From NCBI GenBank assembly GCA_003231975.1, contig QIKW01000192.1:1-33875 (forward strand): a stretch of DNA of 33,875 nucleotides, given 5' to 3'. Positions 5,751-26,134 of the stretch are shown piece after piece. Every line of letters starts with the position of its first letter. The first letter of the stretch is position 1. The position numbers were made by a program, and so were the translations under genes. Below the pieces are notes generated by a model. That model was not told the DNA's origin and searched no databases. It worked only from the letters and a program-made list of their open reading frames with translations. The DNA is from Acidimicrobiia bacterium. Its GTDB lineage: Bacteria > Actinomycetota > Acidimicrobiia > Acidimicrobiales > SZUA-35.

Positions 5751-7083
5751 GGGGCCCAAGGCTGGATCTTGGCTCTGGTTCTGCTGCGCTTTGGTCGGCG
5801 GGCGGCGTGGCGACGCGGGCTAGATCGTTCAGCTCGCGTTGTGCGACTCCCCTGATGACTGCGATGTAGACCAGCCAAGACCCGAGGAACACGTTCTCGG
5901 AGAGGCTCATCAGGAACTGAGCAGCCAGTATCAGCAGGATCCATTCGCCGAGCTCGGGAGAGCTCCTGAGGAGGCGAGTACCGCGGAACACCGTTGACAC
6001 GAACACCAGGCTGAAGATGGCCAGCCCGACGATGCCGAAGTTGAGCCACACATCAAGCGCGCCGCTGTGAGAGTGGGGAATGGCGAAACCCACGTCTCTC
6101 CAGATCTGGCGAGTGATTTCGCTGCGGGGATCCCAGAAAACTCCGCCGACTCCGTATCCAACCCAAGGGTTGTCTTGGATTGCGCTGATTACCGCTTGCC
6201 ATATGAAGGTACGGCCGGAGAAGGTGAGGTCCTTCCCGTATGCGTTGGCCAGGGCACTCAGAGACGCCACTGCAACCATGATGGCGCAAAGAGCAACCGC
6301 AAGAGAAGACATCACGTAGGCGGTGGACCAGCGGCCTTTGCTGCGATGGAAGAATCGGAACCAGGCCCACATTGCTCCAACGAACAGCGCGGTTGAAAGG
6401 CCCGTCGCTGAATCCGATCCGATCAACAAGACACCTATTACTGCCAGCATCAGGCCGCGTCTGGTTGGCTCTTTCTCCCAGATCAGCGTGGTGATCAGGG
6501 CCAGTATCAGATAGGGGGCCATCACGTTTTTGTGGATGAAGAAGCCGTTCCAGCCCGGGTAGGGCAGCGCGTAAACGCCGTCGGCCGCGTGGGTGCGGGT
6601 TTCGGGGAAAAAGACGAGCGCAAAAACCGTGATTGCGACGCCGATCATGAGGCCCCGCTGAATCGCCTTTATGACCACCTCCTTTGGTACGAGGCTGCTG
6701 ACCAGAGATGCCGCAATCACAAGTGGGAGGTCTCGGCGCACGCTGAAGAGCCCAAATTCAGGATTCCGGGTCCACAACACCGACATGCCAATCCACGCCA
6801 CCATCATCATTGCCGGGCCATCAAGCACGACTCGCTTCAGGTGAGCCTTCGGAGCCAGCAGAAGGGCCCCAACCGGTAGGCCGACGGCGAGAGTCCAGAA
6901 GAGGGGCCTGAGGGGGTAGACCGGGGCCGCGAGCAGGAACGCGATGGTGATGTAGGCGCCTGCCAGGTGAGTGGCGAACGGCCCTATTGGTTCGGTGACT
7001 CCACCGTGGGCCAAGCCCGCCAACCGCCGCGTGATCCGTCGTTCCCCAGGCGAGGCGTCTGCGGTTTGGGGTGTTTCGATCAT
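5731..7083 (-). CDS. Wzy-type O-antigen polymerase/ligase family membrane protein
   Basis: This 450-residue polytopic membrane protein has about 10-12 hydrophobic segments. It carries the Wzy_C/WaaL hallmarks in order: FFIHKN near 181-186, GSDSATGLS near 222-230, FSGRTFIW near 288-295, GYGVGGVFW near 309, and the periplasmic-loop HSHSGALDVWLNFG at 337-350. In a cluster with Wzx and PGT genes it most likely polymerises flipped repeat units on the outer face of the membrane; a ligase role is less likely because no lipid-A core genes are present. Its ATG overlaps the TGA of the upstream glycosyltransferase gene (ATGA), implying translational coupling. Its 3' end overlaps the convergent gene by 20 nt. 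Confidence 0.83.
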   Translation of the reverse strand: MIETPQTADASPGERRITRRLAGLAHGGVTEPIGPFATHLAGAYITIAFLLAAPVYPLRPLFWTLAVGLPVGALLLAPKAHLKRVVLDGPAMMMVAWIGMSVLWTRNPEFGLFSVRRDLPLVIAASLVSSLVPKEVVIKAIQRGLMIGVAITVFALVFFPETRTHAADGVYALPYPGWNGFFIHKNVMAPYLILALITTLIWEKEPTRRGLMLAVIGVLLIGSDSATGLSTALFVGAMWAWFRFFHRSKGRWSTAYVMSSLAVALCAIMVAVASLSALANAYGKDLTFSGRTFIWQAVISAIQDNPWVGYGVGGVFWDPRSEITRQIWRDVGFAIPHSHSGALDVWLNFGIVGLAIFSLVFVSTVFRGTRLLRSSPELGEWILLILAAQFLMSLSENVFLGSWLVYIAVIRGVAQRELNDLARVATPPADQSAAEPEPRSSLGPLSVRRD

Positions 7084-8174
7084 TGCTCTTTCTGGCCGAT
7101 CGCCTCTGCGAGAGTTCCTACATACGAATCGGTCGAATGGTTCTCAAGAACCCATTCTCGGGCTCTTTTGGCTCGGAGTTGAGCTTCCGCCGGATCATCT
7201 AGTACAGCAGCAATTGCATCCTGAAGTGCAGCAGCATCGCCGGGCGGGACTCCAACGACAAGATCTTGGCAGATCATTTCCGACGCAAGCCCCGGTGTTT
7301 TGGAGATGATCACGGGGCTGCCGCAAGCGATCGCCTCCAGCATTGTGGTCAGCCCAGCTGAGAAATTGTTTGCCAGCAACGGAATCACGGTGATCGATGC
7401 AGCGCGGTACAGCGACCGCAACTCGTTGAACTCGAGGTGTCGCAGTTCCATGTTGGCAGGCAACGGATCGGGGATGGCCAGCGCGGTTTGATCGGTGTAG
7501 TTCGGCGACGCGGCGCACACCTTCACAAAGAGATCTAGAGCCTCGGTTGCCTTGGCCAGCGTGATGTAGTCCCTCTGCTCGAGCCCGCAACTTGCAATAA
7601 GTGGCGACGTAAGAACTTGCTCTGGTGGGAGACGGGGTGAGAAGAAGTCGGTGTCGGTCTGATCAACGGCAAGGACAACCTGCTCAACTCGCGAGCCAAT
7701 GAGATTCTCAAGAAACCTCGCCTTGTCGGGGGTGCCAGTGGTGACGAACAAACGCTTCACCCCAACTGCAACCACCCGCGCCAACCACTTGGCCCGGGTT
7801 CGCTCGGGAGCCAGGAAGTAGATCCCGATTCGAGCCGAACTGCGCCGGAAGGCTGCCACAAGAGCCAACGGCAGCCCAACATCGTCGCCCGTGGCGTAAA
7901 TTACGGTTGTCTCCTCAGCGGTTGCAATCACATGGCGAGCTGTTGCCCAGTGCTCGCTGGTGCCTACAATCTTTGCTAGTAGACGATCTGACCACACCGT
8001 TTTGTGATCGCCCGGCTGGAGGATTTCTGCTCCGATTTCTTCTGCCAATTGTGCGACCGAGTGACCTGGTCCGGCGTCGGAGCGCTTACGATGGCCAAAA
8101 CCGGCGAAGTCGAACCTGGTGCTGGTAAGAATCAAGATCTTTGTCAGATTGCCGATGTCTTGTGGCGCGGTCAC
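7080..8174 (-). CDS. Family 4 glycosyltransferase
   Basis: This 364-residue GT-B enzyme begins with a Rossmann strand (ILILTSTRFDFAGFG). Its C-terminal domain contains FSAGLTTMLEAIACGSPVII, the GT4 nucleotide-sugar binding segment. The end is the typical AxRAREWVLENHS tail. The frame is open to 8234, but a strong Shine-Dalgarno, GGAGGAGG, sits immediately before the GTG at 8174. That start removes a short N-terminal tail unlike the family and leaves room for the divergent sulfotransferase gene, so I chose it. It is the first gene of a two-gene operon with the polymerase at 5731, overlapping by 4 nt. The substrate is unknown. Confidence 0.83.
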   Translation of the reverse strand: MTAPQDIGNLTKILILTSTRFDFAGFGHRKRSDAGPGHSVAQLAEEIGAEILQPGDHKTVWSDRLLAKIVGTSEHWATARHVIATAEETTVIYATGDDVGLPLALVAAFRRSSARIGIYFLAPERTRAKWLARVVAVGVKRLFVTTGTPDKARFLENLIGSRVEQVVLAVDQTDTDFFSPRLPPEQVLTSPLIASCGLEQRDYITLAKATEALDLFVKVCAASPNYTDQTALAIPDPLPANMELRHLEFNELRSLYRAASITVIPLLANNFSAGLTTMLEAIACGSPVIISKTPGLASEMICQDLVVGVPPGDAAALQDAIAAVLDDPAEAQLRAKRAREWVLENHSTDSYVGTLAEAIGQKEQ

Positions 8175-8191
8175 AAGCCTCCTCCCCTCCG
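8164..8191 (-). promoter_or_regulatory. Strong Shine-Dalgarno deciding the GTG start of the glycosyltransferase gene
   Basis: On the minus strand the sequence GGGGAGGAGGCTTGTG ends in the GTG at 8174-8172. This gives a GGAGG core about 6 nt from the start codon. It is one of the best ribosome-binding sites in the window, and upstream ATGs in the same frame lack one. Confidence 0.6.
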
Positions 8192-8257
8192 CCCTGATCG
8201 AATCAGTCATTGATTCGTACATCCTCTCACACACCGTCCCTCACACACCGAGTTGTC

Positions 8258-9292
8258 ATGAAAGCACATCCAATCTTCTTTGTCGGCGCAGAACGCAGCG
8301 GAACAACTCTCTTTCGGTTGATGATTGATTCGCACCCCGAAGTCACCTGTCTTGAGGGGTTTGCCTTCGTGGCCGACGCCATCGAACCCTCACCCGACAC
8401 CATGGGCCCATCCGAAGACGGCGGCAATGGGCAATGGAGCATGCCCTCGGTCGATCAATACCGGCAGTTCGTCAAGACCGACACAATATTTTCTACTTCG
8501 GGATTCTCAGTTGACCCGTCGCTTGGTTCGTTCGCCGAAATCAGCCAGAGCTTCCTTGAACAGAGGCTTGAGGCATCTGGCAAGTCTCATGTGGTTGCGA
8601 AACTTCACGAAGGCTTCGAGCGAATGCTTGCCATTTGGCCAGACGAGGTTCGCTTCATTCACCTTCTGCGTGACCCTCGGCCGGCCGCACTCTCCGGCGT
8701 CCCCATGGAGTGGGGCGGAAACGCCTACGTGGCGGCAGCGAAATGGATTAAGACCGAACAAGAGTGGGACCGGGTTAGCCACATGGTTTCGCCGGATCGG
8801 TGCATGGAAGTTCGATTTGAGGATCTTGTCACCGGGCACGAGGAGGTCCTCGCCAAGGTTTGCGCCTTCATTGGGGTTGGCTACACCGACCAGATGCTCG
8901 AATACGCGGCCGAAACCGACTACGAACTGCCAGATCCGTCTCGGGCCTACGCTTGGAAATCCGAGATGTCTGACCGTCAAGTCCAGCTGGTAGAAGCGCG
9001 GGTCGGCGACTTGCTCGTCGACCGCGGCTTCCAGCCAAGTGAGTTGGCGAAGATCAGCCTCGCCCCGCGGGACTTGCAGAAAATCAGCGCTCAGGTTCGG
9101 CTCAAGAAGTGGCGGCACAAGCTCCTGGCGCACGGCTTGGTTGGAATTGGAGAGCTGGTTACCAGGAAGCTGCGGCTCTCTTTCTTGCATACGCCGCTGA
9201 AACAAAAGATGAACTCCCACGAGCGGGCCGCCAGAAAGCGGTCCTGGCGAGAGCCAGGTCGTGAGTACTCTCTCGCTCCGCACAAGCGCTGA
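8258..9292 (+). CDS. PAPS-dependent sulfotransferase (paralog B)
   Basis: This 344-residue enzyme is a full-length paralog of the product at 3527. The 5'-phosphosulfate loop is FFVGAERSGTTLFRLMIDSH, starting near residue 7, and the 3'-phosphate motif is RDPRPAALS. Paralog A has an Asp where this one has Pro in the second motif, while the key Arg and Ser are kept. The ATG at 8258 was chosen over an in-frame start at 8210 because the motif then begins at the usual distance from the N-terminus. It heads the long plus-strand region that continues with the Gfo/Idh gene and is divergent from the GT4 gene at 7080. The presumed target is a polysaccharide sugar. Confidence 0.86.
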   Translation: MKAHPIFFVGAERSGTTLFRLMIDSHPEVTCLEGFAFVADAIEPSPDTMGPSEDGGNGQWSMPSVDQYRQFVKTDTIFSTSGFSVDPSLGSFAEISQSFLEQRLEASGKSHVVAKLHEGFERMLAIWPDEVRFIHLLRDPRPAALSGVPMEWGGNAYVAAAKWIKTEQEWDRVSHMVSPDRCMEVRFEDLVTGHEEVLAKVCAFIGVGYTDQMLEYAAETDYELPDPSRAYAWKSEMSDRQVQLVEARVGDLLVDRGFQPSELAKISLAPRDLQKISAQVRLKKWRHKLLAHGLVGIGELVTRKLRLSFLHTPLKQKMNSHERAARKRSWREPGREYSLAPHKR

Positions 9293-9379
9293 GATGAGTT
9301 TTGCGGTGGTGGATCCAGGCGAATCGGGGTTTCCCCAGTTTTGCTTGACAACGGGAACTCGTCGGCCGATTGGGAGGCC

Positions 9380-10456
9380 ATGACGTCTCCCTTGCGCGCC
9401 GCCGTGATCGGTGCAGGCGCCATCTCCTTGGAACACCTGCCCTTTCTTCAGCAGAGCGAACGGGCCAACCTCGTTGGGATCTGTGATCTCTCGCCGGTTT
9501 CGGCTCGCATTGCGGCCCGCCGCTTCGACGCGGAAGCCGGCTACACCGACTTGGCTCATATGCTTCGCCAGGCGTTGCCGCAGGTAGTTCACGTGCTCAC
9601 CCCGCCTCATACCCACGGTCCACTGGTTCGCCTTTGCCTTGAGGCCGGGGCTCATGTGGTGTGCGAAAAGCCAATGGCTGCAACCGCCGACGAGGCCCAG
9701 GAGTTGTTGACTGTGGCGGCCACCAACAAGGTGCACTTGGTCGAGAACCACAACTATCGATTCAACGATGAAGTCGTTGCTCTGAAAGCCTTGATCGAAC
9801 AGGGGCGAATCGGTGATGTGTGCGAAGTCGACATCCGGATGGCCCTCCAGATCCGGGGCGAAGGCTCTCGTTTCGCCGACCTCAGCAACATCCACCCAAT
9901 CCACGCGATGCCTGCCGGGGTGTTACATGACTTCGTCACCCACTTCGCCTACTTGCTGAACGAGCTGTCTGGCGGGGCCGACTGGCAGAGGGTCAGTGCA
10001 GCGTGGAGCAATCACGGCGGCGGGGAGCTGTTCAAATTCGACGATCTTGATGCCACCTTGATTGGCCCCAATGGTGCCGGCCAGGTGCATGGTCGGATCC
10101 GGTTTTCCTGCCGCACCTCGCCCGATGTCTTTTCGGTAACGGTCCGAGGCACCGAAGGTCAGGCGTCAACCGACATCTTCCATCCGTTCCTGGAAGTGCT
10201 TGGCCCGCGCCCCGGAGGCGAGCAGCTCACACCAATAGTGAATCACATCGTCAACGGCACACGGCTGGCTGGGGCGGGCTTTCGAAACTTTGGCCAGAAG
10301 CTTCTCCAGCACGGCCCGTATCACGGCCTCTCCCGGTTTCTTGACAGTACGTACGAGGCCTTGCAAGCAGACCAGCCGCCGCCGGTCACGCCACAGCACA
10401 TCATGGCAGCAGCGTCGCTGGTCGACCGCCTCCTGGACCAAGAGGCAAGACTGTGA
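9380..10456 (+). CDS. Gfo/Idh/MocA-family NAD(P)-dependent oxidoreductase
   Basis: This 358-residue protein starts with a Rossmann dinucleotide fold (AAVIGAGAIS, residues 7-16). The family's cofactor and active-site motif EKP is at 96-98, within VVCEKPMAAT. A C-terminal GFO_IDH_MocA domain carries the LHDFVTHFAYLLNEL helix with candidate catalytic histidines. Such enzymes oxidise or reduce sugar hydroxyls, in surface-polysaccharide clusters often on nucleotide sugars. The ATG at 9380 gives the standard N-terminus but has GGAGG only 2 nt away; a TTG at 9341 is the alternative. It overlaps the next SDR gene by 4 nt (GTGA), so the two probably act in one pathway. Confidence 0.82.
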   Translation: MTSPLRAAVIGAGAISLEHLPFLQQSERANLVGICDLSPVSARIAARRFDAEAGYTDLAHMLRQALPQVVHVLTPPHTHGPLVRLCLEAGAHVVCEKPMAATADEAQELLTVAATNKVHLVENHNYRFNDEVVALKALIEQGRIGDVCEVDIRMALQIRGEGSRFADLSNIHPIHAMPAGVLHDFVTHFAYLLNELSGGADWQRVSAAWSNHGGGELFKFDDLDATLIGPNGAGQVHGRIRFSCRTSPDVFSVTVRGTEGQASTDIFHPFLEVLGPRPGGEQLTPIVNHIVNGTRLAGAGFRNFGQKLLQHGPYHGLSRFLDSTYEALQADQPPPVTPQHIMAAASLVDRLLDQEARL

Positions 10457-11538
10457 ATACCCAGACTGAGCCCAGCCAGTTCCGTATCTTCGTTTCCGGT
10501 GCCACCGGGTTTGTTGGCCGTCACGTCGTTGCCGAGGCCGTGTCCCGAGGGCACCACGTTGTTGCAATGGTGCGCCCAGCCTCTTCGGCCAGCGCATTGG
10601 ATCCGGTTGCCGCCACCGGCCGCCTCAGCATTGTGAGGGCAGACCTGGCGGCGCCCACCGGGATTGCTGAAGCCATGGCGGGCTGTGATGCCGTGCTTCA
10701 CCTGGCGGCAGTGAAGGGCGGTGACTTCTTCAGTCGCTTTGCGGGAACTGTTGTTGGCACCGAGACCCTGCTGAACGCAGCCAGGGCAGCTGAGGTCAGG
10801 CGCCTGGTTGCTGTAAGCACCTTCTCGGTCTATGACTACGGTGCCATAAAGGCGGGCTCGGTCTTCGACGAGAGTTTCCCCGTGATCGCAGACCCCCGGG
10901 GCCGAGACGAATACGCCGAAACCAAGTTGTATCAAGACGAGCTCTACTGGGAGTTCGGAGCTGCTCCCGACAACCACTTGGTCATGATGCGACCTGGGAT
11001 GATCTATGGTCGAGATCAGCTCTGGCATCCGTTGCTTGGCGGAGAGTTCGGGCCGATCGATCTGAGGGTTGGAGCGAAAGCGAGACCCCCTATCAGCTAT
11101 GTCGAGAACACCGCCCAGGCGCTGGTGCTTGCCGCCGAGGTGCTCTGCGATCCGCAAACAACCGATTCGGTGGACGGGCAGGTGATCAACATTGTTGACA
11201 ACGACCTTCCAACCCAGGCCTATTACGCCGAGCGGGTGAAGGAGCTGGTTGAAGTTCCCAAATCGCTGTTTGTGCCAAGGCCGGTAATGAAGGCGGCTGC
11301 GGTGGCAGTTGCAGCGGTAAATCGTCGGTTCTTCGATGGCCGGGCCAAGGTTCCAAGCATCGCCCTGCCAGACCAGATCGATGCCAGATTCAAGCCGTTC
11401 GTTTACCAGAACGCGAAGGCAAAACGCCTCCTTGGATGGTCTCCCCGGTTCGGCCTCGACGAAGCGCTTCGCAGAAGCGCGAGCTCGGAGGATCTTGTCT
11501 CCAAGCAGTTGATGAGCAATGGTCGCTCAGAGTCGTGA
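10453..11538 (+). CDS. Extended short-chain dehydrogenase (NAD-dependent epimerase/dehydratase)
   Basis: This 361-residue SDR has the nucleotide-binding motif GATGFVG at 16-22 and the catalytic YAETK (Tyr154, Lys158). An MRPGMIYG stretch follows, typical of the extended SDR (WcaG-like) group. The residues after the active site do not tell epimerase, dehydratase or reductase apart. The GTG start overlaps the stop of the Gfo/Idh gene, and its own stop overlaps the GTG of the following glycosyltransferase, so three genes are translationally chained. A role in modifying a nucleotide sugar or lipid-linked sugar together with the Gfo/Idh protein is inferred from the coupling. Confidence 0.8.
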   Translation: MNTQTEPSQFRIFVSGATGFVGRHVVAEAVSRGHHVVAMVRPASSASALDPVAATGRLSIVRADLAAPTGIAEAMAGCDAVLHLAAVKGGDFFSRFAGTVVGTETLLNAARAAEVRRLVAVSTFSVYDYGAIKAGSVFDESFPVIADPRGRDEYAETKLYQDELYWEFGAAPDNHLVMMRPGMIYGRDQLWHPLLGGEFGPIDLRVGAKARPPISYVENTAQALVLAAEVLCDPQTTDSVDGQVINIVDNDLPTQAYYAERVKELVEVPKSLFVPRPVMKAAAVAVAAVNRRFFDGRAKVPSIALPDQIDARFKPFVYQNAKAKRLLGWSPRFGLDEALRRSASSEDLVSKQLMSNGRSES

Positions 11539-12884
11539 AAAAAAACCGAGCGGTCTCGCAGCCAGCGCCCAAAGCTGGCCCTCGCGTGCTGTATTTCGCA
11601 ACCGAGTACCCACGGGCAACCGACACGTTCATTCAGCGCGAGATTGCCGCCCTTCGCTCCCACGGCGTTGTTGTTGAAAGCATGGCCGCGCGCTCGCCTG
11701 ACGACCAACACGTCGTTGGCGAAGAGCAGCGGCTTGAGAGGGATCGAACCCGATACATCCTTCCCCCGTCGGTCGGGTCGCTGCTAAAGGATCATCTTGG
11801 GCTTGTGACCCGGTCACCTGGCCGGTACGTGCGGGCGCTAAAGCTGGCTCTTCGCACCGCCCGTCCCGGAATAAGGGGTCACCTCTTCCAGCTTTTTTAC
11901 TTTGCCGAAGCTGGCGCAGTAGCGGCCCGCCTGCGAGACGAGGAATTCGATCACCTGCACAGCCACTTTGGCGACGTCTCAACCTCAATTGCCATGCTGG
12001 CATCTGAGCTTGCAGGTGTTCGATTCAGCTTCACGCTTCATGGCCCTGGAGTGTTCTTCGAGGCGCACACCTGGCGGTTAGACACCAAGATCGAGCGGGC
12101 CGCATTCGTTTCTTGCATTTCGTGGTTCTGTCGCAGCCAGGCGCAATTGCTGAGCTCTGAGGAAAGCGGCCCAAAGCTTCACATTGTCCACTGCGGAGTT
12201 GATGTCAATCGCTATGTCGACCGATCAGCCGAAGAGGCCCGTCCTCTGGGAACAAGCGGTCCGATTCGGCTGGCCTTTGTTGGTCGTTTGGATCACGTGA
12301 AGGGCCTCACTGTGCTGTTTGAGGCGCTCGCTGAGGTCGCCAAATCAAGGCCCGAGGTGCATCTCGAGGTTGCGGGCGACGGCCCAAAGCGGCGTGACTT
12401 CGAAAGAGCGGCTGCCCGTATGGCGCTTAGCGACCGGGTCAAGTTTCTTGGCTATGTCAGCCAGTCCGAGGTTGCCGATCTCTTGGCCCGCAGCGACATT
12501 TACGTCCTGCCAAGCTTCGCCGAGGGCGTGCCCGTTGTTCTGATGGAAGCTCAGGCCAGCGGCCTTCCGGCTGTTGCCACCAAAGTCGGGGGTGTTGGCG
12601 AACTCGTTTTGAACAACAAGACCGGCTTCCTTGTTTCGCCGGGGGATGTGTTGGAGTTGGCTGCACGAATTGATCAGCTGGCGGGCGACCCCGAGATGCG
12701 ACAGAGGTTCGGAGCCGCCGGGCGGGCAAAAGTGACGGCCGAGTTCGCAAGCAAAACCGAAGCGGGAAGGCTGGCCGCGTTGTTCGCAGCACCCGGATCG
12801 ACCGCTTTTCTAGGAATTCGACCAAATTCGGCGGCCGCGGGAGACCTAAATGATCCGGTACTTCCCCATGTTTCCCCCTATTGA
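11535..12884 (+). CDS. Family 4 glycosyltransferase (WcaL/colanic-acid type)
   Basis: This 449-residue GT-B enzyme opens with VLYFATEYPRATDTFIQREI, the signature start of colanic-acid-type GT4 enzymes. It has a LHSHFGD acceptor-side motif and FVGRLDHVKGL at the start of the donor domain. The E-x7-E element lies in FAEGVPVVLMEAQASGLP. An open frame extends back to 11436 inside the previous gene, but the GTG at 11535 (GTGA overlap with the SDR stop) gives the normal N-terminus. It ends in a TTGA overlap with the frame of the GH74-like gene. Donor sugar unknown. Confidence 0.87.
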   Translation: MKKNRAVSQPAPKAGPRVLYFATEYPRATDTFIQREIAALRSHGVVVESMAARSPDDQHVVGEEQRLERDRTRYILPPSVGSLLKDHLGLVTRSPGRYVRALKLALRTARPGIRGHLFQLFYFAEAGAVAARLRDEEFDHLHSHFGDVSTSIAMLASELAGVRFSFTLHGPGVFFEAHTWRLDTKIERAAFVSCISWFCRSQAQLLSSEESGPKLHIVHCGVDVNRYVDRSAEEARPLGTSGPIRLAFVGRLDHVKGLTVLFEALAEVAKSRPEVHLEVAGDGPKRRDFERAAARMALSDRVKFLGYVSQSEVADLLARSDIYVLPSFAEGVPVVLMEAQASGLPAVATKVGGVGELVLNNKTGFLVSPGDVLELAARIDQLAGDPEMRQRFGAAGRAKVTAEFASKTEAGRLAALFAAPGSTAFLGIRPNSAAAGDLNDPVLPHVSPY

Positions 12885-12922: not shown

Positions 12923-15244
12923 GTGCCAAAGGTGACGAAAACTGCGGCGAAGGTGATCATCGCGATTGTGGCGGTAATGGTGGTGGCATCAGCCTGCACC
13001 GGCGACCCTGGCAACGGGTTGGATCCGCTGCCACCTCCGGGTTCAAGACCAGAAATGACGTTTGAACCAACGGTCACGGTGCCTCCTGCCGAAGAGCCTG
13101 TCAGCTCGGTCGAAGAGTCATACCAGTGGGAAGTTCTGTCGACCGGTGCTGGCGGGTTTGTCACCGGGCTGGATTCCAACGCCGACGGTTCGGTCCGTTT
13201 GGCTCGCACCGATGTGGGCGGCATCTACCGGTGGAACGACAGCGGACGGCTCTGGCAACAGCTGATCACCTTCGAGGGAGTGCAAGACCCCGAGCTAAGC
13301 GACTTTCAGATCGAGGCAATGGCAATAGCCCCGTCCGACCCTGATCGCTTGTACATCAGCACTGGCAGAAGTGTGCGGGAGCCAGAGGGCCGTGTGTTCG
13401 CCAGCCAGGATGGCGGCCTCACATGGGTTGGCGCCCAGCAGCGGTTTGCCATCCACGCCAACGGAGACTGGCGAACCTCTGGCGAACGTCTGGCAGTAGA
13501 TCCCACCGATCCCGATGTTGTCCTGCTCGGTACCCGGACTGAAGGGCTCTGGCGTTCGACTGACGGTGCCACAACCTTTGAAAGAATCGACAGTGTGCCC
13601 GTTGGCTCCCTACCCGCGGGGGTGCGCGAAAGTGCAACACCAGCGGGCGTTCTGTTCGTTGTGTTCTCAGCCGATGGCTCTACTGCATGGGCGGGCGTTT
13701 CTGGAGTTGGAGTTCTCCGCAGCGAAGATGGGGGCCTCAATTGGGTAGTCCTGGTGCCGGGCGAGGGCATGCCGTTCGATGCCGAGGAAGGAGTGGACGG
13801 TCGTCTCTGGGTCGTGCAGCGTGACCCAGGAAAGGTTTGGCTGGTCGATGGCGACTCGGTTAGCGAGATCAACCCGAACAACGACCGCCGTTACGAGACA
13901 GTTTCGGTTGATCCGTTCAACCCGGATCGTGCCATCGTTGGAGGAGTTGGCATCGCAGGCGATCTGTGGATAACGACAAGCGCTGGCCGCTCCTGGGATG
14001 ATCTGCCTGTTGAGGTCAGTTGCCAGACGATTCCATGGTTGGATGTTTACCCGAATGAGTTCCTTCCAACTGGGTCAATCCGTTTTGACCGCTCAGTTCA
14101 GGACCAATTGTGGGTTCCTGAGGGTTTCGCTGTTTGGCGCGGCATGGTCGACCGGGGTCGCCTAGACCTGGTGTGTGAGGCGGCCGGAATCGAAGAGTTG
14201 GTTTCCAACGACGTCGTTGTGCCTCCAGGGGGCCAGCCGGTTACCGCCCACTGGGATCGAGGGGTCTTTTGGCACGGCGGCACCAGCGCGGCCGAGGCCG
14301 TTGTGTTCCCCGAGAATCGGTTCAATTCGGCGTGGGACCTGGACTGGACCCCCGCAGATCCAGACTTCGTTGCCGTGATCATCGGCGACCAGAGAACTTG
14401 CTGTCGGGCTGAACCCGAGTCGTTCCTGAGTGGCTACTCAGAAGACGGCGGCCAGACGTGGACTCCGTTTGGTTCCTATCAAACCGGCCAGCCCGAGGCC
14501 CTGGTGTACGGCAACATTGCAGTTGCCTCAAACGACCCAAGCAACCTGGTTTGGCTGCCAACCTTCAACCGTGAGATCCACTTCAGCACCGACAAGGGGA
14601 ACACCTGGACTCCGGTGGTGCTGCCGGGCACCGAGGAAATGACAAATCCGAATACCGGAGCGTACGCTGGTGGCTCTCATTTTCAGTACTTCCTGAATCG
14701 AAAAGTGCTGGTGGCAGACAGGATCGAACCAAACACCTTCTACCTCTACCACCGGCTTGGGATCTTCCAATCAACAGACGGAGGGGCGTCTTGGGAGCTT
14801 TTGGAATCTGAGGGCCTGGTGCGCGGCGGGGCAGGGCAGTTCAACGCATCTCTGGTTGCCTCACCAACCGAGGCCGGGCATCTTATCTTCACCCAGGGAC
14901 TCCAGGAAAGCGGCGAGGTGCCGTTCTATGAATCCACAGACGGCGGAGCCACCTGGCGGACCGTTCCTGGGCTTTCAGATGTATCGGTCGCCGGATTCGG
15001 GGCGCCGATCGGAGACCGCGCTGATCCGGCGGTCTATCTCAGTGGCAAGTTCGGCGGAGTCCAAGGGATCTACCGATCAGTCGACGGACTCTCGACGTGG
15101 GAGCTGATCTCTCCGGCTCCGCTTGGGAACTATCAGGCGATAAAGGCCATCACCGGCAGCCTCGACGAGCCTGGAACGGTCTATGTTGGATTCTCCGGGA
15201 CATCCTTCATGGTTGGCCGATCTGGGCCGATTGAAGGGGGCTGA
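12923..15244 (+). CDS. GH74-like beta-propeller glycoside hydrolase, predicted lipoprotein
   Basis: This 773-residue exported protein has a basic N-terminus, a hydrophobic stretch and a lipobox-like VVASAC ending at Cys25, then a Pro-rich linker. The body has many Asp-box motifs (for example SQDGGLTW, SEDGGQTW, STDGGASW), as in tandem beta-propellers. The propeller starts with YQWEVLSTGAGGFVTG and LARTDVGGIYRW, matching the opening of GH74 xyloglucanases. The Asp of RTDVGG (97) and that of AHWDRGVFWH (445) sit where the two GH74 catalytic acids are expected. GH74 enzymes cut beta-1,4-glucan backbones such as xyloglucan. In this operon it may trim or release the polymer made by the cluster. 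The start is unsettled: a TTG at 12881 overlaps the previous stop, and GTGs lie at 12923 and 12932. Confidence 0.75.
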   Translation: MPKVTKTAAKVIIAIVAVMVVASACTGDPGNGLDPLPPPGSRPEMTFEPTVTVPPAEEPVSSVEESYQWEVLSTGAGGFVTGLDSNADGSVRLARTDVGGIYRWNDSGRLWQQLITFEGVQDPELSDFQIEAMAIAPSDPDRLYISTGRSVREPEGRVFASQDGGLTWVGAQQRFAIHANGDWRTSGERLAVDPTDPDVVLLGTRTEGLWRSTDGATTFERIDSVPVGSLPAGVRESATPAGVLFVVFSADGSTAWAGVSGVGVLRSEDGGLNWVVLVPGEGMPFDAEEGVDGRLWVVQRDPGKVWLVDGDSVSEINPNNDRRYETVSVDPFNPDRAIVGGVGIAGDLWITTSAGRSWDDLPVEVSCQTIPWLDVYPNEFLPTGSIRFDRSVQDQLWVPEGFAVWRGMVDRGRLDLVCEAAGIEELVSNDVVVPPGGQPVTAHWDRGVFWHGGTSAAEAVVFPENRFNSAWDLDWTPADPDFVAVIIGDQRTCCRAEPESFLSGYSEDGGQTWTPFGSYQTGQPEALVYGNIAVASNDPSNLVWLPTFNREIHFSTDKGNTWTPVVLPGTEEMTNPNTGAYAGGSHFQYFLNRKVLVADRIEPNTFYLYHRLGIFQSTDGGASWELLESEGLVRGGAGQFNASLVASPTEAGHLIFTQGLQESGEVPFYESTDGGATWRTVPGLSDVSVAGFGAPIGDRADPAVYLSGKFGGVQGIYRSVDGLSTWELISPAPLGNYQAIKAITGSLDEPGTVYVGFSGTSFMVGRSGPIEGG

Positions 15245-15245
15245 G

Positions 15246-16187
15246 GTGACGGCGCCAACTCGTTCCTCTGACGACACCCCTACGGGGCGCTCTACTCTCA
15301 AACAAACCGCCCAGGAGTTTGCGTTGAAGGAAATCGAGACTTCCAGATCAAACGAGGCTCGGCAGATGGCCGCGCCTGCGTTTGACACGGTAGATCTTTT
15401 TGGGTTGCCCTTCGTCGACGCCGCCAAGGAATCCGAGGTGGCCGATCATCTTGTCAACTGGTGCCCAGAGCGGCTGTCAACCGATATTCTGACCGATGTG
15501 GCCAACGGGTCCGGGGCCACTTTGCCGTTCGTGATTACCCCGAACGTCGACATTGTTGTTCAGCTCCACCAGGGCGACGAGCAACTCCGAGCCTCGGTCA
15601 GCCGCTCACTGTATGTTCTGCCCGACGGCTGGCCCATCGTTGGTGTCTCGCGCTTGGTTCGCCGGCCACTGAGCAGCCGAATTTCCGGTGCCTCAGTGTT
15701 CTCGTACTGGTGGCCCCAGGTTTGTGCCAGGAGTAGACCTACCGCGCTTTTGCTCTCAAGCGAGGCGGTTAAGGACGGCCTGCTTAAGGAGCACCAAGCC
15801 GCAGTTGCAATGGTTCCTCCGATGATCGCCCCAACTCAGGATGCCATTGACTCTGTCGCCGACGACTTTGTGAAGATGGCGGTTGAGGCCGAGGCCGAGT
15901 TTGTGGTGTTCGGCCTCGGTCACCCCAAGGACACCAAGCTGGCGTTGGCCGTGCTTGAGCGCTGGCCAAGCGACCTGGAAGTTCCGCTTTCCTTCTGCCT
16001 GGGAGCATCGGCTGAGTTCTACCTCGGCCTCAAGAAACGAGCACCTCGTTGGGTTCAACGTTTTGGTCTTGAGTGGTTGGCTCGCTTCGTGCAGGAGCCC
16101 CGTCGGATGTTCCGGCGATACTTTGTGCGAGACTTGGCCTTCTTCCCGCTGGCCATGAGGGAAATTTTCGGTCGGGGCAAACAATGA
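15246..16187 (+). CDS. WecG/TagA/CpsF-family glycosyltransferase
   Basis: This GT26-type enzyme of 313 residues shows the family blocks in order: LFGLPFVDA (51-59), TPNVDIV (98-104), LPDGWPIVG with Asp127, the RISGAS block near 145, and VFGLGHPKD near 221. The family adds N-acetylmannosamine or its uronate to a lipid-linked first sugar (TagA in wall teichoic acid, WecG in enterobacterial common antigen), so it may place the second sugar here. The usual PkQE motif reads PKDT, so acceptor handling may differ. The N-terminal 40 residues are not conserved, and an internal ATG at 15366 is a possible start. GTG 15246 is favoured by the GGGGG run 5' of it. Confidence 0.82.
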   Translation: MTAPTRSSDDTPTGRSTLKQTAQEFALKEIETSRSNEARQMAAPAFDTVDLFGLPFVDAAKESEVADHLVNWCPERLSTDILTDVANGSGATLPFVITPNVDIVVQLHQGDEQLRASVSRSLYVLPDGWPIVGVSRLVRRPLSSRISGASVFSYWWPQVCARSRPTALLLSSEAVKDGLLKEHQAAVAMVPPMIAPTQDAIDSVADDFVKMAVEAEAEFVVFGLGHPKDTKLALAVLERWPSDLEVPLSFCLGASAEFYLGLKKRAPRWVQRFGLEWLARFVQEPRRMFRRYFVRDLAFFPLAMREIFGRGKQ

Positions 16188-17077
16188 GCGCACCTCCTGA
16201 GATCTCGGTTGTGATGCCCGCGGGTTCGATCGAGCCAGAGCTTGACCTTCAGCTTGAGGCCCTGGCCGCCCAGTCCTTCGCCGGTTCATGGGAGCTTGTG
16301 GTTTCACTGAACACCGCAGATCGAGCCGCCAGACTGGCACTTGATGAGGCGCTCGAGCGGTTTGACGAGCTGGGAGCCGGATCCACACCGGCGGTTGTGA
16401 TTGACAGCTCGGCTGTTCGCAGCGCATCACATGCCAGGAACGCAGGCGCGGCCGCGGCGAAGGCGCCCTTGCTGGCGTTTTGCGACAGTGACGACATCGC
16501 CCATCCCGATTGGTTGAATGCCATCTCCGAGTCTCTTCAGGCCAACGATGCCGTCGGTGGATTTCTCGAAGAACAACGCCTGGGCGTAAGCGGTCAGGAG
16601 AACTGGCGACCTCCCGCAACTCCTGGCAGCAATCCTTCGTTTCTGGGTCACCCCTATCTGGTATCGGCCAACATGGGCGTGCGGGCTTCCGCCTTTCACG
16701 CCGCAGGTGGGTTTGACGAGTCGCTCATCCGAGGCGAAGACATAGCCTTTGCCTGGGCCCTGATTCGCAACGGCGTGAAGCTTGGTTACTCCCCGGAGGC
16801 CGTGATGCACTATCGCCACAGGAAAGGCCTGCGGCCAATGCTTAAACAGCACTACCTATACGGTCGTGGGATGAGCCAGATCCTCGCCACCCATGGGGTG
16901 CCGGACGGAGCGGGCAAATCTGCCACGTTGCTTCGGGCCAACGGTCAGTCGGTTGACCAGATCAGTGCCGTTCACATTCTGCGCCGCGGCTCCATCGCCG
17001 TTGGCCGACTGGTCGGCCTGGCCCAAGTTCTGATCTCGGGCCGACTTGCTTCGTTCGCTCTCCCCGGAAGGAATTGA
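16184..17077 (+). CDS. Family 2 glycosyltransferase
   Basis: This 297-residue GT-A enzyme has ISVVMPAGS at 7-15, a SHARNAG motif at 82-88, the metal-binding DSDD at 101-104 and the acceptor motif RGED at 183-186. No transmembrane anchor is obvious, although the C-terminal 40 residues are moderately hydrophobic. Its ATG lies inside the stop of the TagA-type gene (ATGA), indicating coupled translation. It is the last glycosyltransferase of the central operon before the chain-length gene. Specificity is not evident. Confidence 0.83.
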   Translation: MSAPPEISVVMPAGSIEPELDLQLEALAAQSFAGSWELVVSLNTADRAARLALDEALERFDELGAGSTPAVVIDSSAVRSASHARNAGAAAAKAPLLAFCDSDDIAHPDWLNAISESLQANDAVGGFLEEQRLGVSGQENWRPPATPGSNPSFLGHPYLVSANMGVRASAFHAAGGFDESLIRGEDIAFAWALIRNGVKLGYSPEAVMHYRHRKGLRPMLKQHYLYGRGMSQILATHGVPDGAGKSATLLRANGQSVDQISAVHILRRGSIAVGRLVGLAQVLISGRLASFALPGRN

Positions 17078-17105
17078 CCAGCGACGCGTCGTTGGTTCAC
17101 CTCAC

Positions 17106-19130
17106 ATGGAACTGTCCTTTGTTTTTGCCGCCCTGAAACGCCGCTGGTGGGTGGTGTTGATCTTTGCCGAACTTGGCATTTTGCCCTTCATCATTGGAGG
17201 TGGCCCGGTTGAGACCACGGTGTTTGAGTCTCAGGCCAGGCTGGTGATTTTGCCGCCATCGGGTTCTCGGATAACCACCACCCAACCAGACCGCTACGTG
17301 CTTGGTCAGCTTGAAATCCTTACAGGAAGAAGCGTTGCCGAGCAGGTCGCCGAGCAGTTGGGCTCTGACAACGTTAGAGAGATCAGGCAGAGCTCTGAGT
17401 TTGTTCACATCCCGGAAACCGACGTTGTTACCGTTTCGGTTCGCGAGGAAGACCCGGCAACGGCTCAACTGGTGCTCCAGACCATCGTCGATACCTACAT
17501 GGCAAGGCTGGTTGCGGCCGATACCGCGGTTCGTGGTCCCGATCTGGCAAGGCTCGAAGAGGAGCTGTTGGATCTTCGAGATGATCTGCAAACTGTGAAC
17601 GCAAGGATCGCGACTGCATACGAACCGTGGCTCAATCCCGATTCTGAGATCGCCCGACCTGCGCCGTCAGAAGTCGCTCTGGTGCCGAACGAGTCGGCCG
17701 AGCGCACGTTCATCATCGCCGAGATCCAACGCAACGAACTGCTCCGTAGCACTATCACGAACACACCATCGGGAGTGAACACCTCGATCGTTCAGGACGC
17801 CTCGCTGCCAACGAATCCGATCACCGAAACGGGCGGCATTTTCGAGATAGCTTTTCTGGTTGGCATGACGCTCCTCGGAGTTTCAGTTGCCCTGCTGTGG
17901 GCCCGGTTCTCCAGGAAGGTTCTGGACGTGCACCACCTATCTGAGATCTTGCAGGTGCCAGTAGTTGCGAGACTGAAGAAGTCGAAGGCGCTAAAACAAG
18001 ACCCGCTTGTTGCCTTCACCCGACTTCCGCAAGACATGATTGCCGGAGTCGACCAAATTGCGGTTCAGGCCGAGGCACTGGCGTCAATCGATCGGCCGCT
18101 CACCATCGCCGTCGTTGGCTCACAACGAGGGGCCGCAACCACAACTGTTGCGGTTGCCCTCGCCGCCCGATTCGCCGCCGCTGAATATTCGGTCCTGCTG
18201 GCAGACGCCGACCGCCGAGACCCTTGGATCACAGATGTGTTCGGGGCTGCCGACCATGGTGGTGTACCTGCCTTGCTGGGAATTGTCGACAAGGGAGTCG
18301 ACAGGATCTTTACCAGAACCAGCGAGCCAGACGTGAGAGTGCTCGGACTTGGTGGTAGCGGAGCCAACCTGCGGAGAGAATCTGCTCCCGCCTTGGTCGA
18401 GGCCTCTCGGGAGGCGGCCAACATTGTGATCTTCGATGGAGGCCCACTGCTGGATGCGGCGTCGACTGTTGAACTTTGCAACGTGGTTGACGCCATCGTC
18501 CTAACGGTGCCGCTCTCAGATTCAAGAACCGATGACCTTGCCGTAGTTGCCCGCCAGCTGGGAAGTGTCCGAAGCAAGGTGTTGCCTGCGCTAACGGCCA
18601 CCAGCAGGAGTGTGGCGTCCCGCCAGACAATCGACGCCAATCTCGGGGCAGACAGTTTCGCTCTTGGTGGGGGCCTCGTTGCGGTGGCCAGAGCCGCCAG
18701 TGAAGGCCGTACCAGCAGGGCTTCGAGCCAACGAATGCGAGCCGAAGACAGCGATCCCGGCAAGCCAGGCTCCGATTCACCAATTGAGCGCCGACAGTCC
18801 GACAGGCAAACAGACGAGGCCGACGATGTCAGCCCGTCTGCACGCGGTTCCGCCAACTCCAAGGCAGCCGAATCAGCCAAGAAGAAGCCGAGTAGGGCCG
18901 CAAAGAGCGCCACTCAAGGGGTGGATCGACGGAAATCCAAGGCCAGGACGCCCGCACCGAAGGGGCGGCCAGAACGAAGGTCGGCCAACAAGGCCAAGGC
19001 CGCATCAACCGACGCCAACCGTCGGGCAGCAGGCACCAAGGAGAAACCAAGCAAACCGGGCGAGAAGGTTCAGAAAGTTGGGGCGGAAGCGCAAGTGAAG
19101 GATGGAAAGAGTGACCGACCAGACAGTTGA
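17106..19130 (+). CDS. Wzz/Wzc-like chain-length protein with degenerate P-loop and basic C-terminal tail
   Basis: This 674-residue protein has a membrane helix near the N-terminus (RRWWVVLIFAELGILPFII), an extracytoplasmic Wzz domain with a helical stretch, and a second helix ending near LLWARFSRK. A ParA/BY-kinase-like domain follows. The Walker A equivalent, GSQRGAATTT (338-347), has Ala-Thr where Gly-Lys is expected, so ATP binding in the normal way is doubtful. LLADADRRD (Walker A') and IVIFDGG (Walker B) are still recognisable. From about residue 530 the tail is low-complexity, rich in Lys, Arg, Ser, Ala and Pro, with no tyrosine cluster. I read it as a copolymerase pseudokinase. ATG 17106 has no strong ribosome-binding site. 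It overlaps the next gene by 29 nt. Confidence 0.8.
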   Translation: MELSFVFAALKRRWWVVLIFAELGILPFIIGGGPVETTVFESQARLVILPPSGSRITTTQPDRYVLGQLEILTGRSVAEQVAEQLGSDNVREIRQSSEFVHIPETDVVTVSVREEDPATAQLVLQTIVDTYMARLVAADTAVRGPDLARLEEELLDLRDDLQTVNARIATAYEPWLNPDSEIARPAPSEVALVPNESAERTFIIAEIQRNELLRSTITNTPSGVNTSIVQDASLPTNPITETGGIFEIAFLVGMTLLGVSVALLWARFSRKVLDVHHLSEILQVPVVARLKKSKALKQDPLVAFTRLPQDMIAGVDQIAVQAEALASIDRPLTIAVVGSQRGAATTTVAVALAARFAAAEYSVLLADADRRDPWITDVFGAADHGGVPALLGIVDKGVDRIFTRTSEPDVRVLGLGGSGANLRRESAPALVEASREAANIVIFDGGPLLDAASTVELCNVVDAIVLTVPLSDSRTDDLAVVARQLGSVRSKVLPALTATSRSVASRQTIDANLGADSFALGGGLVAVARAASEGRTSRASSQRMRAEDSDPGKPGSDSPIERRQSDRQTDEADDVSPSARGSANSKAAESAKKKPSRAAKSATQGVDRRKSKARTPAPKGRPERRSANKAKAASTDANRRAAGTKEKPSKPGEKVQKVGAEAQVKDGKSDRPDS

Positions 19131-19929
19131 CCCAATCGTAAGTCCCGCAGACATTCCCGTTGTGATCTTGTGCGGTGGTCAGGGCACCCGAATCAGAGAG
19201 GCTTCTGAGAAGCTGCCAAAGCCGCTGATTGACATCGGCGGTAGGCCTGTCTTGTGGCACATCATGAAAACCTACGGAGCCCACGGCTTTCGGAGGTTCA
19301 TTCTCTGCCTGGGCTACAAGGCATGGGACATCAAGGAGTTCTTCCTCAGGTACCAGGAGAACGTCACCGACTTCACTATCAACGTTGCCCACGGCGGCGG
19401 CCCCCAGTTTCACGCGTCACTAGATCTTGACGATTGGGATGTCAGCCTTGTCAACACGGGGATCGATAGCGGCACCGGAGGTAGATTGGAGCGGGTCAGG
19501 CACCTTATTGATCAGCCGTACTTTATGGTCAGCTACGGCGATGGGGTTGGCGGCGTCGATCTGTCGGGTGAGTTGGCGGCTCTGGTCGCTCGACCCGAGC
19601 TGATGGCTTATGTAACCGGCGTGCACCCAACTAGCCGTTACGGAGAGTTGCACACAAACGAGGACCGGGTTATTGACTTTGCCGAGAAGTTGCCGTCTGA
19701 CGGCTGGGTTTCGGCTGGATTCTTTGCCTTCCGTCAGGAGTTTCTGGATCGGCTGCTGCCAGACCCCGAGCACTTCTTCGAGCAGGGCCCGATGCAGGAT
19801 TTGGCCCGCGAGGGCCAGCTTGGCCTCTGGCAGCACAATGGGTTCTGGATGGGTATGGACACCTACCGGGAATATGTTGCCCTTAACAAGTTGTGGGCCG
19901 ACGGGGAAGCTGAGTGGAAGATCTGGTAG
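19102..19929 (+). CDS. rfbF: Glucose-1-phosphate cytidylyltransferase
   Basis: This 275-residue nucleotidyltransferase makes CDP-glucose from CTP and glucose 1-phosphate. It has VVILCGGQGTRIRE at 20-33, KLPKPLIDIGGRPVLWHIMK just after, FILCLGYKAWDIKEFF, and GYGDGVGGVDL-type metal-binding context (SYGDGVGGVD). These match RfbF/DdhA rather than the RmlA dTDP enzymes. Length is close to the family norm of about 257 plus a short N-terminal extension. GTG 19111 is an alternative start to ATG 19102. The usual partner, CDP-glucose 4,6-dehydratase (RfbG), is not recognisable in the window. The stop codon abuts that of the convergent PGT gene. Confidence 0.9.
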   Translation: MERVTDQTVDPIVSPADIPVVILCGGQGTRIREASEKLPKPLIDIGGRPVLWHIMKTYGAHGFRRFILCLGYKAWDIKEFFLRYQENVTDFTINVAHGGGPQFHASLDLDDWDVSLVNTGIDSGTGGRLERVRHLIDQPYFMVSYGDGVGGVDLSGELAALVARPELMAYVTGVHPTSRYGELHTNEDRVIDFAEKLPSDGWVSAGFFAFRQEFLDRLLPDPEHFFEQGPMQDLAREGQLGLWQHNGFWMGMDTYREYVALNKLWADGEAEWKIW

Positions 19930-20698: not shown

Positions 20699-22279
20699 TC
20701 AACCCGCACCACTGGATGAAGACTCGTCGCCTGGTGCAGATGCACTGTGTCCACCAGTTCGGGCGGTGTGAGCCGCTGCTAGGCGAGCTGTAGTTTTCTC
20801 TCGCAGATCGATGATCGTTTCGGACTGGGCCACAACAACTTGATCGTTGCCGTTTGCGGGAAGGAATCGCCGCAATGGCAGCATCGCCACCGTTACGATC
20901 ACCTGCTCTACCGTTGCCATCAGGATGCGCAGGTCCAGGCCCACTGTCCAGTTCTCGACGTAGTGAAGGTCTAGCCGTCGGTAGGCGCTGAAGCTGGCGT
21001 TGCTTCTGGCTTCAACCTGCCACAGGCCAGTGATGCCAGGCCTTACGCTGAAGCGGCCCCGGAGTTCGTCGTCGAAAGCTGCCTCTTCCTCAAGCAGAGC
21101 GGGGCGTGGCCCAACAAGGCTCATCTCCCCCTTCAAGACGTTCACGAGTTGTGGCAACTCGTCTATTGAAGACTCTCGAATCAGGCGCCCAACCCGGGTG
21201 ATACGGGGATCATCGGAAAGCTTGAACAGCGGCCCTGATCTCTGGTTCTCGTTGGCTAGATCGGCCTTCAGCTCCTCGGCGTTGGTGACCATGGAGCGGA
21301 ACTTCACCATTTCGAATGTCTTGGCCCCTCTGCCTGCCCGGCGCTGGCGAAACAGAGCCGGCCCACCATCTTCGACTTTGATGGCCATCGCAGTTAGCAG
21401 AAGAATGGGGGCGACGAGGATGAGCCCAACGACGGCGCCGATGATGTCGATGGCGCGCTTGGTTGCCAGCTGCCACCGAGCGGGTTCGTTGGCAGACCAA
21501 ACAACCAATGGTTCGTGAGCCAGAGAACGCACCTCGAAACGAGCGTCCCAGAGGCGGCTGACGCCGGTGGACAGGTGTACGTCGAAGCCAGCGTCAAACA
21601 GGTCGCGTGTGATGTTGCGGAACTGCTCACCCCGGAATCCTGTGGGGGTAACAATGGCAGATTGGGCTTCGTGCACGTGCATCAATTCGACTAGGCGATC
21701 GGTTGGGCCCAGCCATAGGTCGGCCAGTCCGAACTTCTCGGCAACCGGCAAGTGCCCAACGATTCCGACTAGATCGAATCTCGCCTCGGGATGGTCTGCA
21801 ATCACCTCGGCGAGGTCGCCTGCTTCGTGGCCAGAACCAACGATCACGACGCGCTCTGGGACGTGGCGAGACTGAAGCTCGGCCCCAAGTGAGCGAATCA
21901 TTCCGCGAGCAACCACAAGGAGAGAGACCGCAATTGCAAACCCGATAACTATTTCCCAGGCACCGATGTGCCAGTTGAGGAAGGCACCGGACACGATTGT
22001 GGCTGCACCGCCGGTGAGAATGGCCCCAACGAGGCGGGAGATCTCGTCGGTGCGGGGGAGAGTCGGCCTGGTTTGGTAAAGCCCGTAGCGGTGGAAGAAG
22101 CCAATTGTTGCGACAACTGCTATTGCTGCCAAGACGAGCGACTGCGAGTTGGACCGGGCAGCTGTGATTGTGATGTTTGTGATCACGAACACAATGAGCC
22201 AGGCGAGGGAAAGCGAAGCCGCGTCAACCACGTGAGTGGCGATCCGAGCATCTCCCTGGCGTTTGTTTTTATTTGGCAC
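20699..22279 (-). CDS. Large phosphoglycosyl transferase (WbaP/WcaJ-type undecaprenyl-phosphate sugar-phosphotransferase)
   Basis: This 526-residue protein has the full WbaP-type layout. Four N-terminal membrane helices (within about 15-125) come first, then a CoA-binding-like Rossmann domain (VVIVGSG near 144), a reentrant helix near 275-300, and the catalytic domain. The last contains VKFRSM (325-330), the Asp-Glu of SIDELPQL (373-374), SLVGPRPAL and PGITGLWQV. It should prime synthesis by loading hexose 1-phosphate on undecaprenyl phosphate. The tail after about 480 is low complexity. The start is GTG 22279, with AAGGG about 9 nt upstream. It and the short PGT make two priming enzymes in one operon. 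Confidence 0.9.
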   Translation of the reverse strand: MPNKNKRQGDARIATHVVDAASLSLAWLIVFVITNITITAARSNSQSLVLAAIAVVATIGFFHRYGLYQTRPTLPRTDEISRLVGAILTGGAATIVSGAFLNWHIGAWEIVIGFAIAVSLLVVARGMIRSLGAELQSRHVPERVVIVGSGHEAGDLAEVIADHPEARFDLVGIVGHLPVAEKFGLADLWLGPTDRLVELMHVHEAQSAIVTPTGFRGEQFRNITRDLFDAGFDVHLSTGVSRLWDARFEVRSLAHEPLVVWSANEPARWQLATKRAIDIIGAVVGLILVAPILLLTAMAIKVEDGGPALFRQRRAGRGAKTFEMVKFRSMVTNAEELKADLANENQRSGPLFKLSDDPRITRVGRLIRESSIDELPQLVNVLKGEMSLVGPRPALLEEEAAFDDELRGRFSVRPGITGLWQVEARSNASFSAYRRLDLHYVENWTVGLDLRILMATVEQVIVTVAMLPLRRFLPANGNDQVVVAQSETIIDLREKTTARLAAAHTARTGGHSASAPGDESSSSGAG

Positions 22280-22428: not shown

Positions 22429-23124
22429 TCAAACCAATCTTCTTGCTAGCTGGATGCTGGTCGCATCGATGATGTGAATGTTCCCAACCTCGCCAGGAAT
22501 CCCTACCACCCGGTAGCCGAAGTGTTCCAGAAGCTCCGAGTCTTCCCGTATCCCGTCTGGCCGGTCGGCGGCTGCGTGGGCTTTGGCCAGGGAGCTGTGG
22601 CGGAACGCCATCGGGACTTGCGCCGCTCCCAGGTTTTCTCGACCAATGGTCAGCAGAGTCCCGTCAAGCCTGCGACGTTTCACCAGGTCAACCGCGTCGA
22701 GCACCGGAACCACCGCATCAGCTGGCTCGTTGCTGTCCGAGAGTCGCTCGATGAGCGCGGCAAATAGCGCCTGGGACGCCAGCGGATGGGCTGCGTCGTG
22801 AATCAGAATCCATTCGAACCCGCGCGGAACCACTTCCAGACCGGCCGCGACCGACGCCAGACGAGTGGATCCGCCCCACACAATTTGATCTACCTGAGCG
22901 CCGGTCCAGTCCGTTTCTGCTGGTAGAACTAGGACCACGTAGTTGCTGGCGGCGCTAGCGGTTCGCACCGCTTGATCCACCAGTCGCTCATCGCTGGTGA
23001 GGAACTCAAATTGCTTAGGTTTGCCGTACCGGCTGCCCGATCCGGCAGCCACAACAATCGCAGCCGATTTTCGTTTGTCCAATTCCCTAATTTCGCTTGT
23101 ACTTCGTGACGAAAGAGTACCCAT
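22429..23124 (-). CDS. IspD/TarI-like cytidylyltransferase, divergent
   Basis: This 231-residue enzyme has the IspD-family CTP loop AAGSGSRYGKPKQF (26-39), VWGGSTRLASV (82-92) and IHDAAHP (108-114). It differs from housekeeping IspD where the substrate phosphate binds. HDAARP is HDAAHP here, the TDDA-like motif reads EDSE, and the NIKIT motif is NIHIIDATS with His217 replacing the usual Lys. In a polysaccharide locus it is more likely to make a CDP-alditol or CDP-sugar, as TarI does, than CDP-methylerythritol; this is inference. Its ATG shares two bases with the ATG of the divergent SDR gene (CATG at 23122-23125), unless a downstream TTG at 23082 is the real start. Confidence 0.7.
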   Translation of the reverse strand: MGTLSSRSTSEIRELDKRKSAAIVVAAGSGSRYGKPKQFEFLTSDERLVDQAVRTASAASNYVVLVLPAETDWTGAQVDQIVWGGSTRLASVAAGLEVVPRGFEWILIHDAAHPLASQALFAALIERLSDSNEPADAVVPVLDAVDLVKRRRLDGTLLTIGRENLGAAQVPMAFRHSSLAKAHAAADRPDGIREDSELLEHFGYRVVGIPGEVGNIHIIDATSIQLARRLV

Positions 23125-26102: not shown

Positions 26103-26134
26103 ACGGCCTGCTACACACGGATTGAGGGAACAAA

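Follow-up and report, generated by a model that had tools for sequence, protein, structure and literature searches.

A membrane-anchored GH74-type protein is a candidate hydrolase of a Wzx/Wzy exopolysaccharide system in Acidimicrobiia

Introduction

GH74 is a family described as degrading plant xyloglucan, and a GH74-type gene lying among genes for the synthesis of an exopolysaccharide (EPS) raises the question of what such an enzyme does there. The gene lies on a 33,875-nucleotide stretch of DNA from an Acidimicrobiia bacterium (contig QIKW01000192.1), which was analysed over its full length and is referred to here as the window. The window is one complete contig, and an assembly artefact is unlikely because G001, a separate genome from the same genus, has an identical order of genes. 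An earlier note on this DNA proposed that the cell makes a xylose-substituted glucan-type polymer and trims it with a dedicated hydrolase. Our literature search found no report placing GH74 in polysaccharide biosynthesis. At issue are whether the protein belongs to GH74, whether its association with EPS genes is conserved, and whether its substrate resembles xyloglucan.

Results

The gene occupies 12923–15244 on the + strand and encodes a 773-residue lipoprotein from a putative GTG start at 12923; the mechanically called open reading frame begins earlier, at TTG 12881. A lipobox (VVASAC, with its Cys near residue 25) is located at the N-terminus, and a membrane anchor, either a lipobox or an N-terminal helix, is present in 10/10 aligned family members. 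Pfam finds only Sortilin-Vps10/BNR propeller repeats in the protein. The name Sortilin-Vps10 was rejected as a repeat-level match rather than a family assignment, as was the F510_1955 family (Pfam and NCBIfam names), whose repeat-level match was below cut-off. When searched against solved structures by phmmer, the protein matched GH74 xyloglucanases over its full length (2cn2, E=2e-47), and a family profile matched it with E=5e-229. The 25 best fold matches of its AlphaFold2 model (mean pLDDT 88.6) were all GH74 structures, with E values from 2e-54 to 9e-22, followed by a drop to 9e-16. Asp97 aligns to the residue that is mutated to alanine in 2cn3 (D70A), and Asp445 aligns to D480, the second catalytic Asp of Clostridium thermocellum Xgh74A. 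All 87 sequences aligned have both residues, which account for two of just 21 invariant columns in a 32-row alignment. The profile search and structure prediction had been proposed as checks in the earlier note, and its description of a 773-residue GH74 propeller with both catalytic aspartates is borne out. Taken together, the full-length homology, the predicted tandem seven-bladed propeller fold and the two catalytic residues identify the protein, as judged from sequence and model, as a membrane-anchored GH74-type double propeller. C224, the second match within the same genome, proved to be a distantly related BNR paralogue and was rejected as another GH74. No relative of the protein was found on viral contigs, and the copy at L012 (genome G009) contains one in-frame TAG, reflecting assembly error or decay.

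The surroundings of the gene are those of a biosynthetic EPS region, as had been claimed. An EpsE-like GT4 glycosyltransferase gene (11436–12884, +) lies directly upstream, with 38 bases between its end and the GTG, and the 3′ end of the GH74-type gene is overlapped by a WecG/TagA/CpsF glycosyltransferase gene (15183–16187, +). Farther upstream are genes for a GT2 glycosyltransferase (163–1086, +), whose homologue in related genomes is linked to either GH74 or GH9, a Wzx-like flippase (1083–2345, −), two GT4 glycosyltransferases (4635–5750, +; 7080–8234, −), a Wzy-type polymerase with a Wzy_C match (5731–7083, −), a Gfo/Idh/MocA sugar dehydrogenase (9341–10456, +), an SDR epimerase/dehydratase (10453–11538, +) and three sulfotransferases (2382–3557, −; 3527–4537, +; 8210–9292, +). 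The flippase is a multi-span membrane protein with no Pfam match and was assigned by topology and position. Downstream are a GT2 (MftF-like) glycosyltransferase (16073–17077, +), a Wzc/Wzz-like chain-length protein with a tyrosine-kinase-like ATPase (17046–19130, +), a glucose-1-phosphate cytidylyltransferase-like protein (19102–19929, +) and a priming sugar-phosphate transferase (EPS_sugtrans/WcaJ-like; 20699–22279, −). With a further pair of genes at 31553–32872 (+) and 32848–33849 (−), the contig carries two Wzx-like and two Wzy-like genes in all and probably holds two adjacent polysaccharide systems.

Linkage between GH74 and EPS genes extends well beyond the window. A GH74 gene together with an orthologous Wzx/Wzy cluster was found in 11 genomes of one Acidimicrobiales family, all 11 of which contain a homologue of the Wzx-like protein. 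The ten relatives represent four genera, and the linkage is kept despite rearranged gene order; GH74, Wzx, Wzy and a GT2 gene share one strand in the g5 genomes. EPS genes also lie beside GH74 in two lake Acidimicrobiia (L041, L042) and in one proteobacterium (L043), whose EPS genes were missed by single-sequence searches with window proteins, so that the comparison relied on Pfam and on profiles built from relatives. The conserved linkage thus covers 13 Acidimicrobiia genomes, our own included, and one proteobacterium, whereas a profile search recognised no EPS gene at 63 of 65 ordinary GH74 loci. Both exceptions are cyanobacterial (Tildeniella L044 and Scytolyngbya L050). In L044, Wzx, Wzy and glycosyltransferase genes lie near GH74, and the GH74 gene is directly upstream of genes for outer-membrane polysaccharide export (OPX) and a Wzc-type kinase, which adjoin it (L044:9845–13446). 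An ordinary xyloglucanase for plant or algal polymers, situated near EPS genes by chance, would be in keeping with the history of the GH74 family and with relatives of the same clade that lie outside EPS clusters (Chloroflexi L035 and L037–L039; Rubrivivax L040). Such a catabolic role is distinctly improbable given the recurrence of the linkage in several genera despite rearrangement, the anchor in every aligned family member, and the window itself, within which no other xyloglucan-degrading gene was recognised. One of the Chloroflexi, AL-N1, has a tandem pair of GH74-type genes from this deep clade (L039:9110–14728), in whose surroundings no EPS genes were recognised.

To place the protein within GH74, 84,980 species genomes were scanned, yielding 79 loci, and a 42-row tree was built that included three solved ordinary GH74 enzymes. 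The window protein groups with nine others from its family and with eight sister sequences from other Acidimicrobiia, Chloroflexi and two proteobacteria, and a branch with SH-aLRT 100 separates this group from all ordinary GH74 enzymes. The differences that are clade-wide are located at the substrate cleft. In an endo-processive GH74 xyloglucanase, PoXEG74, the plus subsites carry a xyloglucan-binding aromatic platform formed by W347, W348 and W406 (PMC10317168). Alignment did not reveal this platform in the window protein: all 18 clade members have lost the Trp-Trp pair of the +3/+5 subsites, and 17/18 have Phe or Tyr at the position of W406. Of 69 ordinary GH74 sequences, in contrast, 66 are aromatic at the first of the paired positions and 67 keep W406. 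The motif around Asp445 is AHWDR in 10/10 family members instead of the canonical GD-x-x-G(F/Y), and the invariant Arg446 beside the catalytic residue could suit an acidic polymer. The Trp-Trp pair is also lost from the cyanobacterial L044 and L050 proteins. At the first Trp-pair position, an aromatic residue is missing from all 15 EPS-placed members and kept at 63 loci, none of which is EPS-placed; a further six members that have lost it (L035, L037–L040 and G137) likewise lie outside EPS clusters. The pattern reflects few phylogenetic events.

The case for xylose rests on two further genes of the region, which the earlier note had correctly recognised, although they are 8–10 kb from GH74. 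These encode a UDP-glucuronate decarboxylase (UXS)-like SDR (22997–24238, +) and a UDP-glucose 6-dehydrogenase (Ugd; 24235–25581, +). Among solved structures the SDR is closest to UDP-glucuronate decarboxylase 1 (1.5e-41; next kind of enzyme, 4.5e-29), and it retains STSE at 202, YDESK at 234 and an Arg near 376, the T/E, YxxxK and Arg catalytic signature. It scores far below the curated UXS/ArnA cut-offs (64 bits against 294 for the bifunctional UXS model). It is probably, as its similarity suggests, a UDP-xylose synthase. A close orthologue accompanies GH74 in only 3/11 genomes (G000, G001 and G022) and occurs without GH74 in two others (G006 and G013), travelling with ugd in all five. More distant pairs of ugd and UXS-like genes are found elsewhere in nearly all genomes examined and are uninformative about GH74 because they are present with or without it. 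UDP-xylose capacity therefore does not track GH74, and a link between the UXS/Ugd genes and GH74 was rejected as a rule.

These results bear directly on the proposal of a self-made, xyloglucan-like glucan with xylose substituents that is trimmed by a GH74 of ordinary xyloglucanase specificity. The UXS-like and Ugd genes in the same region, their conservation as a block in the neighbour G001 and the intact catalytic aspartates of GH74 are all compatible with it. The distribution of the block, the loss of the tryptophan platform throughout the clade and the arrangement in genome G015, where an rmlC-drl pair adjoins an open reading frame beginning like CDP-glucose 4,6-dehydratase instead, argue against it, and we consider it unlikely. 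The xylose substitution is accordingly the part of the earlier proposal that did not hold.

The block that contains the UXS-like and Ugd genes (22997–25581) continues at 25578–27466 and also includes an RmlC-like epimerase and a DXR-like enzyme (DRL; nearest structure 3upy). DRL is not needed for isoprenoids because an ordinary DXR is encoded elsewhere in the genome, and it may make an unusual sugar. An IspD-type cytidylyltransferase gene (22429–23124, −) is divergent from the UXS-like gene; none was found at the matching place in G001, and a 38% homologue adjoins the UXS-like gene in G022 (L110).

The orthologous cluster is also present in family genomes that lack GH74. In G003 and G030, the gene adjoining EpsE or Wzx encodes a 940–990-residue protein with an N-terminal membrane segment followed by CelD_N and GH9 domains. 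Relatives of this anchored GH9 protein were found in 18 family genomes; in 12 of them (G003, G006, G010, G013, G015, G018, G027, G030, G032, G035, G036 and G037) the gene lies beside a homologue of the window's Wzy, Wzx or both, and in the stretch read from the other six (G004, G014, G021, G023, G034 and G038) no such homologue was found. The loci in GH74-negative relatives include L128:6487–9315 (−), L129:5500–8460 (−) and L130–L149. Among 39 family genomes, 29 contain Wzx, 11 GH74 and 18 GH9; one (G015) has both hydrolases, and one Wzx-positive genome (G033, 83% complete and with a contig end close by) has neither. One or other hydrolase is thus present in 28/29 Wzx-positive genomes and 0/10 Wzx-negative genomes (Fisher p=1.7e-8, with genomes within a genus not independent); counted by genus, which is the fairer figure, the ratio is 8/8 against 0/3 (Fisher p=0.006). 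Conserved linkage and co-occurrence with Wzx/Wzy genes were both found, as expected of a hydrolase belonging to a Wzx/Wzy EPS system.

Because each genus is uniform, few evolutionary events underlie the pattern of GH74 and GH9. In a Wzx tree the GH74-linked and GH9-linked flippases are apart. G015, where the two hydrolases each adjoin a different Wzx copy, has its GH9-linked copy on the GH74 side. The tree, whose branches are long, provides moderate evidence for about two switches between the hydrolases, and the polymer itself may have changed at a switch, as opposed to one hydrolase replacing the other on an unchanged polymer. The folds of GH74 and GH9 are unrelated, but both families are inverting and act mainly on beta-1,4-glucans. 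Our literature search turned up no account of a GH9 enzyme belonging to a Wzx/Wzy system.

Two further explanations were weighed against these data. The protein might be a non-catalytic propeller that binds polymer or forms a scaffold within the export machinery; propellers often bind ligands and the substrate cleft has diverged, but the presence of both catalytic aspartates among so few invariant columns, together with the DAGD motif retained by nearly all replacement GH9 copies that extend across that region, makes this very doubtful. Alternatively, it might transfer the polymer to another acceptor, with no hydrolysis, as a transglycosylase or attachment enzyme. Its membrane placement with the Wzx/Wzy machinery would suit such a function, but inverting glycoside hydrolases, GH74 and GH9 included, rarely transglycosylate, and we regard this as the least probable of the alternatives.

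Discussion

The explanation that we favour, with a probability of about 0.7, is that the GH74-type protein is an endo-hydrolase of the surrounding Wzx/Wzy system, anchored outside the cytoplasmic membrane, that trims or releases the native polymer. Its catalysis, substrate and cellular role are what we infer from the loci compared here. Glycosyltransferases would build a lipid-linked repeat, which would be flipped by Wzx and then polymerised by Wzy; the hydrolase would cut growing or misplaced chains at the exit, leading to control of chain length, release, or clearing of the secretion path. The alternation of GH74 and GH9 with one export system and the anchoring at the outer face fit an endo-hydrolase that edits nascent polymer. 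Cleavage is likely to fall on a beta-1,4 gluco-type linkage in the native polymer, itself probably sulfated, and probably not on one in xyloglucan. A dedicated hydrolase of a self-made polymer, as first proposed for this locus, is strongly supported by the conserved linkage, its absence from nearly all ordinary loci and the GH9 alternative, and the glucan-type character of that polymer is supported indirectly by the fact that both hydrolases come from beta-1,4-glucanase families. We would give even odds to the broader proposition that the pathway requires a wall-side endo-hydrolase, with GH74 and GH9 replacing each other, and that this GH74 forms a novel subfamily whose substrate, a self-made, probably sulfated, beta-glucan-like polymer, is also new.

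Why hydrolases are encoded in synthesis operons is an open question for cellulose, and a second type of pathway, Wzx/Wzy, appears to need one so strongly that two unrelated folds have come to occupy the position. The question thereby becomes testable by swapping GH74 and GH9. Such GH74 genes in metagenomes should not be annotated as plant-biomass degraders.

The GH74 xyloglucanases of known structure (C. thermocellum Xgh74A, 2cn2/2cn3; PoGH74, 6mgj–6mgl) share with the window protein full-length homology, the double seven-bladed propeller and both catalytic residues. The window protein differs in being membrane-anchored, in an EPS cluster and in a separate clade, in lacking the W347/W348/W406 platform and in having AHWDR in place of GD-x-x-G(F/Y). 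In the Myxococcus xanthus EPS cluster, also of the Wzx/Wzy type, EpsB is a predicted hydrolase and offers a precedent (PMC7484181). The proposed role resembles that of BcsZ (GH8) or plant KORRIGAN (GH9), since BcsZ-type enzymes and KORRIGAN edit nascent polymer in cellulose synthesis (PMC5407803, PMC4226561). BcsZ-type GH8 enzymes, CelC2 and CcsZ are endoglucanases of cellulose synthase operons (PMC5407803, PMC3520766, PMC7710045) and, like the window protein, are encoded by a hydrolase gene inside a polysaccharide synthesis operon; they belong to other GH families and serve synthase-dependent cellulose, whereas the window system makes a Wzx/Wzy polymer. KORRIGAN is a membrane-anchored endoglucanase needed for cellulose synthesis in plants (PMC4226561). 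It is eukaryotic and works with cellulose synthase, and as a membrane-anchored GH9 enzyme it is akin to the GH9 proteins of the sister genomes rather than to GH74.
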